DNA of 64,000 nt. Source: Martelella sp. HB161492. Its GTDB lineage: Bacteria > Pseudomonadota > Alphaproteobacteria > Rhizobiales > Rhizobiaceae. The first letter of the stretch is position 1; each line of letters opens with the position of its first letter. The translations under genes were made by a program, and so were the position numbers. The notes beneath the pieces are model-generated. The model saw only the letters and a list, made by a program, of their open reading frames with translations. It was not told where the DNA came from and searched no databases. The stretch lies in assembly GCF_013184775.1 (NCBI RefSeq), contig NZ_JAATVV010000008.1:62001-126000 (forward strand). Direction: 5' to 3'. Shown in pieces: positions 11,496 to 15,001 of the stretch.

Positions 11496-11572
<77 letters not shown>

Positions 11573-11715: not shown

Positions 11716-12378
11716 TCAGCGGCCAGGACGCATCGCCGCAAGGGCTGCGGCCATGGCAGACTGATCCACCCCGACATCACGATAGGGCTGGCTGTGCGTC
11801 GCATCAGCAGCAAGCCCGGCAAGTTCACCGCTGATTCGCGCGATCGCCGCGCTGTCCAGCAGCTCCGGATGCACGGTGGTACGCAGGCTGTAATCGACGC
11901 CGCTTTCCAGCAGCGCCATCAGGCTCCGCCGCGCTTTCTCGCCGCTCCGCGGCACCTGCGTGATCGTCTCATAATCATCAAACGGCGCCTTGATATCGAG
12001 GCCCACCCAGTCAATCAGCGGCAGGAGCCGTTTCAGCCGGTCGGGATAGGGCCCGGCGGTGTGAAGCCCGACGCGGAAGCCGCGCTGCCTGACATCGCCT
12101 ATCGCCGCCTCAAGCCCCGCCTGTGCCGTCGGCTCCCCGCCAGAAAAGACCACACCATCCAGCAGGCCGCGCCGGCGCTCCAGAAAACCAAGAACATCAT
12201 CCCAGCTCAGGCGCGCCTCGCGGCCGGCCGGCAGAAGATCAGGATTGTGGCAATAGGGGCAGCGCCAGGGGCAGCCCTGCAAAAAAACCGTCGCCACAAT
12301 CTGCTCTGGCCAGTCGCAGAAGGAAACCGGCTCCAAGCCGCCGATGCGAAGACCGGCGGCGGCGCTCGGGTCAGCCAT
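11716..12378 (-). CDS. nrdG: Anaerobic ribonucleotide reductase activase (radical SAM)
   Basis: 220-residue radical-SAM enzyme that uses S-adenosylmethionine and a [4Fe-4S] cluster to install the glycyl radical on class III ribonucleotide reductase. The cluster motif is CPWRCPYC (CxxxCxxC, about residues 34-41), followed by the FSGGEPT SAM-binding motif. I chose the ATG at 12378, which overlaps the end of the 60-residue glycyl-radical gene by 8 bases. A TTG at 12393 is an alternative. Third gene of the nrdD locus and therefore probably under the same B12-riboswitch and low-oxygen control. Some radical-SAM activases of this group act on other glycyl-radical enzymes, but the context points to NrdD. 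Confidence 0.92.
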   Translation of the reverse strand: MADPSAAAGLRIGGLEPVSFCDWPEQIVATVFLQGCPWRCPYCHNPDLLPAGREARLSWDDVLGFLERRRGLLDGVVFSGGEPTAQAGLEAAIGDVRQRGFRVGLHTAGPYPDRLKRLLPLIDWVGLDIKAPFDDYETITQVPRSGEKARRSLMALLESGVDYSLRTTVHPELLDSAAIARISGELAGLAADATHSQPYRDVGVDQSAMAAALAAMRPGR

Positions 12379-12553
12379 CGGCGCCGGGCTCAACGAAATT
12401 CCGGCGCTCGTTGAATTCCCCCTTCTTGCCGGTATTGAATGAGGAGACCGGCCGGTGATAGCCCATCACCCGTGTCCAGATCTCGCAAGGCTGGCGCTCG
12501 CTGTCGTCCAGGGTGATCTCATGTCCTTCGGTGATGGTGTTCTGCATATCCAT
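12371..12553 (-). CDS. Stand-alone glycyl-radical domain of class III ribonucleotide reductase
   Basis: 60 residues containing PCEIWTRVMGYHRP and SSFNTGKKGEFNER, which correspond to the extreme C-terminus of NrdD. The RVMGY glycine (Gly31) is the expected radical-bearing residue. It is not simply a frameshifted end of nrdD. It starts at its own ATG 11 bases after the nrdD stop, in another frame, and the stop itself lies in a Shine-Dalgarno sequence (TGAAAGGA, seven bases before the ATG). The first 20 residues are acidic and not NrdD-like, perhaps a docking segment. It overlaps nrdG by 8 bases. By analogy with GrcA/YfiD, a detachable radical domain could assemble with the catalytic chain. Confidence 0.85.
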   Translation of the reverse strand: MDMQNTITEGHEITLDDSERQPCEIWTRVMGYHRPVSSFNTGKKGEFNERRNFVEPGADG

Positions 12554-12564
12554 TTTGTGTCCTT

Positions 12565-14622
12565 TCAGCAGGCAATGGCCCGACGCTTCTGTTCCAGCCG
12601 TTCAGCATCGCATTTCGGGCAGAAAGCATGCTCGCCGGCGAGATAGCCGTGGGTTGGGCAAATCGAGAAGGTCGGGGTGACGGTGATATAAGGCAGGCGG
12701 AAATTCTCCAGCGCACGGCGCACCAGCTTCTTGCAGGCCTCGCCGGACGACATGCGGCTCCCCATGTAGAGGTGCAGCACGGTTCCGCCGGTATATTTCT
12801 TCTGCAGCTCTTCCTGCAGCGACAACGCCTCGAAGGGGTCATCGGTGAAGCCGACCGGCAACTGGCTGGAATTGGTGTAATAGGGCTGCTCGTCCGTTCC
12901 GGCCTGCAGAATATCGGCAAAGCGCTTCCTGTCCTCCCGCGCGAAGCGATAGGCCGTTCCCTCTGCCGGTGTTGCCTCCAGATTGTAGAGGTGGCCGGTT
13001 TCCTCCTGAAATCCGACAATCCGGTCGCGAACATGGTCGAGTAGCCGCAGGGCCAGCGCCCTGCCCTTCTCCGTGGTGATATCATCACGGTCAGCGGAGA
13101 AATTTCGCACCATCTCATTGATGCCGTTGACGCCGATCGTCGAGAAGTGATTCTTCAACCGGCCGAGATAGCGCCTGGTATAGGGGAACAGCCCCTCATC
13201 GATCAGCCGCTGGATCACCTTGCGTTTGACTTCGAGACTATCGCGGGCAAGCTCAAGCAGGCGGTCGAGCCGGCCGAGAAGCGCTGCCTCGTCACCGCGC
13301 GCGAGATAGCCGAGCCTGGCGCAGTTGATGGTGACGACGCCCAGCGAACCGGTCTGCTCCGCCGAACCGAACAGGCCATTGCCGCGCTTCAGAAGCTCGC
13401 TGAGGTCCAGCTGCAACCGGCAGCACATCGAGCGCACCATATTCGGAGAAAGCTCGGAATTGAGGAAATTCTGGAAATAGGGCAGCCCGTATTTGGCCGT
13501 CATGTTGAAAAGCCGTGTGGCGTTCTCGCTTTCCCAGGGGAAATCCGGCGTGATGTTGTAGGTCGGGATCGGGAAGGTAAACACCCTGCCCTTGTCATCA
13601 CCGGTCGTCATCACCTCCATATAGGCACGATTGATCATGTCCATTTCGGCCTGGAGATCGCCATAGGCGAAATCCATCTCGACGCCGCCGATGACCGGAT
13701 ATTGTTCCTTCAGATCATCCGGGCAGACCCAGTCGAAGGTGAGATTGGTGAACGGCGTCTGCGTCCCCCAGCGCGAAGGCACGTTGAGATTATAGATCAG
13801 TTCCTGGATCGACTGCCGCACCTCGTCGTAGGACAACCGGTCCTTCCGGATGAAGGGCGCCATATAGGTGTCAAAAGACGAGAAAGCCTGCGCACCGGCC
13901 CACTCGTTCTGCAGCGTGCCGAGGAAATTGACGATCTGGCCAACGGCGCTCGACAGATGCTTCGCCGGCCCCGCCTCGACCTTGCCCGGCACGCCGTTCA
14001 GCCCTTCGCTCAGAAGCGTGCGCAGTGACCAGCCCGCGCAATAGCCGGAGAGCATGTCGAGGTCGTGGATATGCAGATCGCCAGCGCGGTGCGCCTCGCC
14101 GATCTCGCGGGCATAGACATGGGAAAGCCAGTAATTGGCGGTCACTTTGCCGGAAACGTTGAGGATCAGCCCGCCAAGCGAATATCCCTGATTGGCATTG
14201 GCATTGACCCGCCAGTCGGACCGGTCGAGATATTCGTCAATCGAGGAGACCACGTCGACGGCGACACGGCGGTCATCGCGCAGACTGGCATGGCGCTCGC
14301 GATGAACGATATAGGCGCGCGCTGTCTCGAAATGGTCGGCGCCGACCAGAACCCGTTCGACAATATCCTGAATCCGCTCGATCGAGACCGCCGAACGCCC
14401 TTTGGCGCCCTGGCTGAGAATGGCCACGACCAGTGCCGTCAGACGTGCGGCCTCGTCGGGACCGAAGGCATCTGTGGCGATGGCGGCCTTGAGGATGGCC
14501 TTCTCGATCTTGGCCGGATCGAACGGCGCACAGGCGCCATTGCGCTTGATGACCTGGTCAGGCTCGGCTGCGACAGTCCGGTTGGTTTCGGGGGCGAGTT
14601 CTCGCCTGGTAATCTGGGGCAT
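12565..14622 (-). CDS. nrdD: Anaerobic (class III) ribonucleoside-triphosphate reductase, catalytic chain without glycyl-radical tail
   Basis: 685 residues; reduces NTPs to dNTPs without oxygen. One ATP-cone allosteric domain (VIKRNGACAPFDPAKIEKAI, about residues 24-110) precedes the ten-stranded barrel. Likely catalytic cysteines are Cys195 (SGYCAGW) and the Cys400/Cys401 pair (RSMCCRL). The C-terminus has a CxxH...CxxC metal site (about 655-671), where NrdD binds zinc. The chain then stops at AIAC, with no RVxGY glycyl-radical motif; that motif is encoded by the next gene. The ATG at 14622 follows GAAGAGG. The B12 riboswitch leader upstream implies synthesis when cobalamin is scarce, presumably backing up a B12-dependent class II enzyme encoded elsewhere (inference). 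Confidence 0.93.
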   Translation of the reverse strand: MPQITRRELAPETNRTVAAEPDQVIKRNGACAPFDPAKIEKAILKAAIATDAFGPDEAARLTALVVAILSQGAKGRSAVSIERIQDIVERVLVGADHFETARAYIVHRERHASLRDDRRVAVDVVSSIDEYLDRSDWRVNANANQGYSLGGLILNVSGKVTANYWLSHVYAREIGEAHRAGDLHIHDLDMLSGYCAGWSLRTLLSEGLNGVPGKVEAGPAKHLSSAVGQIVNFLGTLQNEWAGAQAFSSFDTYMAPFIRKDRLSYDEVRQSIQELIYNLNVPSRWGTQTPFTNLTFDWVCPDDLKEQYPVIGGVEMDFAYGDLQAEMDMINRAYMEVMTTGDDKGRVFTFPIPTYNITPDFPWESENATRLFNMTAKYGLPYFQNFLNSELSPNMVRSMCCRLQLDLSELLKRGNGLFGSAEQTGSLGVVTINCARLGYLARGDEAALLGRLDRLLELARDSLEVKRKVIQRLIDEGLFPYTRRYLGRLKNHFSTIGVNGINEMVRNFSADRDDITTEKGRALALRLLDHVRDRIVGFQEETGHLYNLEATPAEGTAYRFAREDRKRFADILQAGTDEQPYYTNSSQLPVGFTDDPFEALSLQEELQKKYTGGTVLHLYMGSRMSSGEACKKLVRRALENFRLPYITVTPTFSICPTHGYLAGEHAFCPKCDAERLEQKRRAIAC

Positions 14623-14750
14623 TCAGCGCCTCTTCTCGGTAACGAGAGCGCACTGACCAAAAAAGACGCAAAGCAGCAGCAGGGCGCAGCAGCACCCTGT
14701 TTCACCGGATCACGCCCTTGGGATCACCCCGCCCTCAGACAATATCGCGT

Positions 14751-14945
14751 CGCGGCAGGTCTCCTGGCTTGCGGGTCAAAAACCCATGCTCTGCCTTCCC
14801 GGAAATCGTCCAGTGGCTCAGATGAACATGGCTCTCACCGCTCACAGTTGCGGGGGCAGCGCCGGCCTTCAGCCCCGTTTCAAAGGGCTTTCACCGGCTT
14901 CCCTCTTGGCTTTCGCACCTTATGATGCGAATGACCGCGACACCC
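14751..14945 (-). promoter_or_regulatory. Cobalamin (B12) riboswitch
   Basis: The minus strand shows the ordered B12-riboswitch signatures: AGCCGGTGAAA near 14890-14905, the highly conserved CTGCCCCCGCAACTGTGAG near 14845-14865, GCCACTGG near 14808-14816 (the B12 box in the core), and the closing AAGCCAGGAGACCTGCC near 14753-14770. It lies 130 bases before the nrdD ATG with no other gene between. Adenosylcobalamin binding normally lowers expression of the gene behind it. Confidence 0.95.
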
Positions 14946-15001
14946 CATATAGGCCGCAGATAAGCACCAAACGCAAGATGTTGAGGGTGCGGCGAATTTG
15001 C

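Follow-up and report, generated by a model that had tools for sequence, protein, structure and literature searches.

A predicted class III ribonucleotide reductase with its glycyl-radical domain on a separate small protein

Introduction

Three sources (PMC9531940, PMC9669993, PMC11226230, in the portions available) portray class III ribonucleotide reductase as having the radical glycine on its own C-terminal domain; the catalytic chain NrdD carries a finger-loop motif of the form MGCR or MCCR (PMC9669993, same portion). According to the accessible part of PMC8683613, spare radical domains for other glycyl radical enzymes might exist, validation being confined to pyruvate formate-lyase. Here we analyse a 64,000-nucleotide stretch of Martelella sp. 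HB161492 (the window; contig NZ_JAATVV010000008.1, positions 62,001 to 126,000), in which nrdD is followed by a short open reading frame (ORF) carrying a radical motif and by nrdG, the activase gene. An initial annotation had read this locus as that of a naturally divided enzyme whose radical subunit is a protein of its own. Sequence comparison strongly supports that proposal: the split is conserved and widespread, occurs in three relative frames, and has unlinked and duplicated copies.

Results

The radical segment missing from NrdD lies on a 60-residue ORF

Features of the locus are collected in Table 1. Class III models ranked top in the NCBIfam scan of window NrdD (NF006126 at 1126.5 bits, cut-off 548), and models of class I and of the B12-dependent enzyme (NrdJ) matched it only at residues 16-130, the region of the ATP-cone (PF03477, 77.3 bits in the Pfam scan). 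The translation contains the finger-loop motif RSMCCRL (MCCR) and, past the zinc motif, a 14-residue tail whose last residue is Cys (...RRAIAC). PF13597 matched NrdD over positions 2-538 of 562 (586.5 bits, E 7.5e-176), where the chain stops, and the RVxGY motif is absent from the translation, as the initial annotation had stated. The missing end of PF13597 was found in the small ORF (E 4.5e-8, above the curated cut-off), which had no other Pfam match at E up to 1; a single Pfam domain is thus shared out between two ORFs almost without overlap (2-538; 531-562). The annotation was also right that this 60-codon gene lies 11 bases on, in a frame other than that of nrdD and with its own Shine-Dalgarno sequence, and that nrdG follows (TIGR02495, 191.1 bits, cut-off 131.15); the start of nrdG overlaps the end of the small ORF. 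A PF13597 search of the window's own genome returned these two pieces only, with no second NrdD; the genome also has class I and class II hits (NrdJ, NrdA-like and NrdB).

Table 1. Features of the window locus and of two related small proteins. Coordinates are window positions unless preceded by a locus number (L).
Feature	Position	Strand	Remarks
nrdD	12565-14622	minus	685 residues, translation ending in CPTHGYLAGEHAFCPKCDAERLEQKRRAIAC and stop; PF13597 and ATP-cone, NF006126
C-terminal zinc-type motif CPTHGYLAGEHAFCPKC	12610-12660	minus	NrdD residues 655-671; position from translation
Intergenic stretch, 11 bases, AAGGACACAAA on coding strand	12554-12564	minus	Shine-Dalgarno AAGGA right after nrdD TGA
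Predicted radical-subunit ORF, 60 residues, containing PCEIWTRVMGYHRP	12371-12553	minus	PF13597 positions 531-562
Codon of predicted radical glycine G31 in WTRVMG31Y	12461-12463	minus	From sequence; glycine invariant in 132/132 small ORFs
nrdG, radical S-adenosylmethionine activase (NrdG2)	11716-12393	minus	TIGR02495; start uncertain, TTG 12393 or ATG 12378
Cobalamin riboswitch RF00174, nrdD leader	14737-14954	minus	120.8 bits
Transfer RNA gene, just 3' of nrdG	11499-11572	minus	
Stand-alone protein of about 120 residues	L219:2712-3077	plus	Also L220, L221, L229-L240
Small ORF of PRK07111-type split	L035:3412-3594	plus	Frames read

We consider that the locus encodes an obligate two-polypeptide class III ribonucleotide reductase, with the glycyl radical on a trans-acting subunit, at a probability of about 0.88. 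In this enzyme the ATP-cone, the zinc site and the catalytic barrel, whose finger loop has the MCCR cysteines, would all reside on NrdD. The small protein would dock where fused NrdD has its radical segment, NrdG would turn its G31 into a glycyl radical, and the radical would then move to a finger-loop cysteine, starting nucleoside triphosphate reduction. Docking at this place is suggested because the small-protein profile weakly matches the C-terminal segment of T. maritima NrdD (RVMGYhRPvssFN aligned to RIVGYLVPVSAFN, E 0.07); window NrdD aligns to the T. maritima chain only up to about the start of that segment.

The cobalamin riboswitch, which the initial annotation overlooked, has its near end about 115 bases upstream of the NrdD start. 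It should activate the operon at times of B12 shortage, when the genome's class II enzyme cannot work. Of 17 loci at the level of the order or nearer, the window among them, 14 have a riboswitch ahead of nrdD, and none was seen in the stretches examined of the other three (L003, L019, L020). It was found in 4 of 15 other loci searched (L084, L113, L119, L160), and the search gave none at the nrdD locus of Cupriavidus necator H16 (L083). According to the available part of PMC2864759, C. necator H16 cannot denitrify completely without NrdDG, and cobalamin counters the loss of NrdDG, most likely via NrdJ; a B12-repressed nrdD operon fits these data.

The pair of genes is widespread

Genomes were sampled around the window's genome at the levels of family, order, class and phylum, and PF13597 was sought in each (G numbers denote genomes). 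Within the family it was present in 2 of 151 genomes, both split (G000 and G081); the latter is a second species of the window's genus with the same NrdD and small-ORF pair. The order sample gave 18 of 397, comprising 17 split and one fused (G529). At class level, where 46 of 385 genomes matched, 28 were split with an adjoining small ORF, as read at the junctions, and in three (G639, G808, G833) NrdD and the small ORF lay on different contigs. The remainder consisted of one split of another type (G694), nine fused chains, three fused chains with a long linker (G692, G789, G867), and two left unclassified, one cut by a contig end (G887) and one with the small ORF only (G910). The phylum sample (57 of 398) held 12 splits with an adjoining small ORF, one split on a single contig with the parts 9 kb apart (G1166), two of the other type (G694, G1207), one match too weak to call (G1186) and 41 counted as fused from single-frame matches, 12 of which were read by sequence (L167-L174, L177, L184, L193, L194). 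G000, G605, G694 and G706 occur in both the class and phylum samples.

Such a genome search had been proposed in the initial annotation, and it found the pair throughout: all 58 distinct sampled genomes with a window-type truncated NrdD have a small ORF somewhere in the genome, and none of the 58 has the truncated chain without one. Besides the window and G081, 56 further genomes from the order, class and phylum samples carry the same pair. Three small alphaproteobacterial genomes (L053, L054, L079) have small subunits with FSRSMGFIRP instead of WTRVMGYHRP, and a 4.8-kb contig of G725 holds a different small radical-domain ORF (L071:540-700, MKCGEKTEVYSRVTGYFRPV...), perhaps a contaminant. In a sample of Actinomycetota, PF13597 matched 43 of 149 genomes, with the window-type split only in the centre genome, G1237. 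The NrdD matches of G1268, G1297, G1325, G1332 and G1375 are broken by long in-frame, intein-like insertions, in frames of 937-1716 codons.

A contig scan with 11 small proteins as query, a choice that biases it toward split loci, gave at least 581 stretches, with at least 572 of them confirmed as relatives of either the fused or the split form. We examined the best 80. NrdD ends past the zinc motif with a small ORF close by in 74 of them, the nrdD frame is interrupted in three (L088, L100, L115), and three have no NrdD in the stretch (L090, with NrdG beside the small ORF, L093 and L131). The small genes of L093 and L131, on contigs of Sutterella and Aphodousia metagenome-assembled genomes (MAGs), have neither NrdD nor NrdG within 5 kb on each side. 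Sources of the best 80 include betaproteobacteria (Massilia, Achromobacter, Ralstonia, Thauera), alphaproteobacteria (Rhodopseudomonas, Devosia, Afipia), gammaproteobacteria (Stenotrophomonas, Marinicella), deltaproteobacteria, Atopobiaceae/Coriobacteriaceae and one Omnitrophota MAG. Whole-genome searches of 18 organisms from this set recovered both pieces in 18/18.

Plasmids carry the genes as well. The small protein matched 29 of 72,556 plasmid records (tblastn), and 15 of the 29 were examined. Eleven have a separate small ORF adjoining NrdD and NrdG: pHG1 of C. necator H16, two Bradyrhizobium plasmids, and plasmids of Shinella, Sulfuricurvum, Sulfuricystis, Azospira, Cereibacter, C. metallidurans, P. 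denitrificans and Thiothrix. Two are fused (Actinomyces oris, Acidiphilium). In the other two, plasmids of Allochromatium vinosum and A. tepidum, the small gene stands alone (L244, 2986-3195; L249, 2460-2645), and the surrounding 6.1 and 6.6 kb that were read gave neither NrdD nor NrdG. On Thiothrix fructosivorans pTfr153 (L246) and Bradyrhizobium japonicum p2S06B (L251) the nrdD frame is interrupted, while the small gene and nrdG appear open. On the plasmid of Azospira sp. I09 (L248) the split class III genes lie between class I alpha and beta genes and adjoin an integrase and a Tn3-family transposase. Among 50,697 phage records there were two weak matches, one annotated as anaerobic ribonucleoside triphosphate reductase and the other unannotated.

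Split and fused forms fall in one group

A tree was computed from 74 NrdD rows trimmed past the zinc site (LG+G4, 657 columns), for which a long-branch warning remains. The rows comprise 46 of 122 split chains (22 chosen, 24 random) and 28 of 40 others, leaving out L035, L169, L170, L171, L173, L174, L189, L192, L206, L207, L208 and L216. We did not rely on an earlier 162-row tree, in which several branches were long and one ORF was suspect (L207, end branch 6.36). Window-type rows, split as well as fused, lie in a single group of 64 rows, so that fused chains are nested among split ones; five changes between the two states are needed on the tree, at least three of them forced by well-supported branches. 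A single clade with good support unites the three fused chains that have a long linker.

Cys lies three residues before the aromatic residue of the motif in 128 of the 132 small proteins defined below and one residue before it in five (one has both), whereas Lys, Thr or Leu occupies that region in the seven short-linker fused chains examined. The small-protein signature CEVW ahead of RV(M/V)GY is kept in the three long-linker chains, in Actinomyces (linker 16) and in G590, which suggests that fused chains with CEVW arose by re-fusion; the tree does not fix the position of the root inside the group.

The split of the other type, in the closely related alphaproteobacterial genomes G694 and G1207 (L035, L192), involves a PRK07111-type NrdD (977 bits). 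Here a TAG stop and AAAGGG precede a 60-residue ORF with RRITGYLVGTLDRFNNAKRAEEKDRVKHG, whose end is overlapped by an NrdG-like frame. As its NrdD belongs to a different subfamily, we regard this split as having arisen independently.

Replaceable subunit or neutral separation

The small gene is not always tied to nrdD. In G1166, listed as 100% complete with 0 contamination, nrdD (L176, 1997-4042) is separated by plus-strand ORFs from the small ORF and nrdG (about 12444-13398). In G808 the small ORF adjoins nrdG on a contig other than that of nrdD; the locus pairs on different contigs are L039/L063, L046/L064 and L058/L065. The small gene is present in additional copies in G539, G609, G819, G626, Parasutterella secunda An562 and BMS3Bbin13, counts that are lower bounds since only some first-look candidates were scored in the genome searches. 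Some of the genomes with unlinked or extra copies are MAGs, in which strain mixing or missing contigs are possible.

A related protein was found in Actinomycetota. Three genomes with a complete fused NrdD also encode a protein of about 120 residues, the last part of which copies the NrdD radical segment. This stand-alone protein (Table 1) is present in 17 of 120 genomes of one Actinomycetota order at E 1e-32 or better; 17/17 also have a second match, to the radical segment only, within a much longer frame. All 12 stand-alone proteins that were read have an intact RRITGY motif, and the first 75 residues of the one scanned gave no Pfam or NCBIfam family above chance level. We regard the stand-alone protein as a candidate spare part of the class III enzyme.

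The initial annotation had suggested that the radical subunit is made, swapped or replaced after oxygen damage. This is plausible at most, given the extra copies, the plasmid copies and the Actinomycetota protein beside a fused NrdD. In its full form, the proposal would be that oxygen damage falls on an inexpensive subunit, which is exchanged for a new one while the 76-kDa chain stays in use, that extra, unlinked and plasmid copies serve as spares, that Actinomycetota evolved a spare of their own, and that the split arose at least twice; we advance this tentatively, at rather less than even odds. Alternatively, the split could be neutral, the two-chain enzyme having no oxygen-related advantage and being kept since re-fusion is rare. 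Such an origin is compatible with a two-chain enzyme and competes only with the replaceable subunit. Most loci hold both genes in one operon at a short distance and fused forms are widespread too, as expected of a neutral split; the second split in a distant NrdD subfamily, the extra and lone copies, and the stand-alone protein in 17 of 120 genomes count against it. We give neutrality close to an even chance.

Could the large chain act alone?

Several points weigh against the obligate two-chain enzyme. The T. maritima match is weak. An AlphaFold model of a single chain (L119, with the stop read as Gly) was only fair, with a predicted local distance difference test (pLDDT) score of 78 and a predicted template-modelling (pTM) score of 0.74; its template-modelling (TM) scores to class III structures were about 0.44-0.69. 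The small ORF of G639 (L064, one of the 58 genomes) has no close start codon and may be broken or start elsewhere. Finally, Siedow et al. in 1999 reportedly worked with a 76.2-kDa NrdD of C. necator H16, treated the enzyme as NrdD plus NrdG, and took G650 as the radical site since a G650A variant lost function.

The C. necator locus on pHG1 encodes an NrdD of 676 residues and 76,191 Da (L083:1783-3813), the 66-residue small protein H16_RS32675 and NrdG. Residue 650 of this NrdD is the glycine of CPTHGYLAGEH in the zinc loop, which we take to be the reported radical glycine; the RVMGY motif is on the downstream small protein, with its glycine at G36. If the paper did place the radical at G650, the site may have been assigned to the wrong chain, and the G650A change probably harmed the zinc site. 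That the small protein is instead only a spare of the GrcA/YfiD type, the large chain working alone with another glycine such as that of the zinc-loop HGY, would agree with the position of residue 650 and the reported effect of G650A, and with the existence of extra small-gene copies. However, window NrdD lacks the end of the profile that holds RVxGY, fused relatives have both HGY and RVMGY (L061, L080, L177, L187), and a truncated NrdD was accompanied by a small ORF in 58/58 genomes. We regard this explanation as very unlikely.

Probably two polypeptides rather than one chain

The junctions were compared in 132 split loci (loci, not genomes): 55 from the genome searches, three from plasmids and 74 from the contig scan. 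They include one identical pair and two loci in one genome (G389); 15 duplicate locus identifiers, NrdD frames without the zinc motif, and cases with no small motif within 700 nt were left out. The motif glycine is kept in every small ORF, though the search motif accepted Ala as well. The frame of the small ORF relative to nrdD is 0, 1 or 2 in 36, 46 and 50 loci, and the distance from nrdD stop to small start has a median of 28.5 nt and a range of -41 to 298 nt; this speaks against a conserved frameshift. A four-letter Shine-Dalgarno core precedes 114 of the 132 small starts, compared with 341 of 3811 ATGs inside nrdD. Each side has residues of its own: the NrdD tail past CxxC is 11-35 residues long, and the small proteins have about 20 residues ahead of RVMGY. 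The ratio of non-synonymous to synonymous changes per site (pN/pS) of the small ORF is 0.40 overall and 0.49 in the first 22 codons (one genus, ten pairs among five of its eight species, those with small ORFs of equal length). Cys occurs past the zinc CxxC in 33 of the 132 split NrdD tails, two or more times in 23, and often near the very end.

If ribosomes changed frame at the junction in a programmed way, or read through the nrdD stop, a single chain would result, and this would be in keeping with the adjoining position of nrdD and the small gene in most loci read. We rejected it as very unlikely in view of the three frames, the spread of gaps, the Shine-Dalgarno sequences before most small starts, and the small genes that lie far off (L176), on other contigs or alone on plasmids (L244, L249). 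A sequencing error or recent disabling mutation in this strain can be dismissed, since the pair recurs in G081 and 56 further sampled genomes with extra residues on both sides of the junction, although interrupted nrdD genes do occur at other loci (L088, L100, L115, L246, L251; none was found for the window). Joined frames, frameshifting and absence from relatives, which the initial annotation had named as grounds for abandoning the split, were sought in sequence and none was found.

Discussion

The comparisons point to a widespread enzyme type with its radical domain on its own chain, in which the spare-part question is directly testable in C. necator H16. Heterologous expression of nrdD and nrdG alone from a split species should fail, and the radical-site assignment reported in the literature may need correction. 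The small ORF is already present in NCBI gene tables, which usually call it 'nrdD, anaerobic ribonucleoside-triphosphate reductase'; the architecture itself appears to be undescribed in the open-licence literature. In that literature we recognised no description of a split class III enzyme, and one may exist in subscription papers; the same search did recover split class II enzymes and spare parts of pyruvate formate-lyase. The phylogeny in PMC9531940, as far as the available part describes it, excludes sequences below 400 residues, and phylogenies built this way would miss the small subunit.

Fused class III NrdD (NF006126/TIGR02487, PF13597) resembles the window enzyme in its ATP-cone, barrel, MCCR finger loop, zinc site and NrdG partner, but carries the radical segment itself, which here is a separate polypeptide. 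Split class II enzymes, NrdJa/NrdJb, are likewise reductases in two chains, of another class (PMC9669993 and PMC4520616, in the portions available). GrcA/YfiD and phage T4 Y06I are, like the small protein, small separate glycyl radical domains for a larger enzyme (PMC8683613, available part). According to the same part, however, the enzyme repaired by GrcA/YfiD possesses a radical domain itself; window NrdD lacks one, and the small protein should therefore be obligatory. Its domain is of the NrdD type (PF13597) and not of the pyruvate formate-lyase type, and an identity as GrcA of pyruvate formate-lyase was rejected because the Pfam scan gave PF13597 only. Another close system is nrdDG on pHG1 of C. 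necator H16, which has the same split architecture as the window locus.

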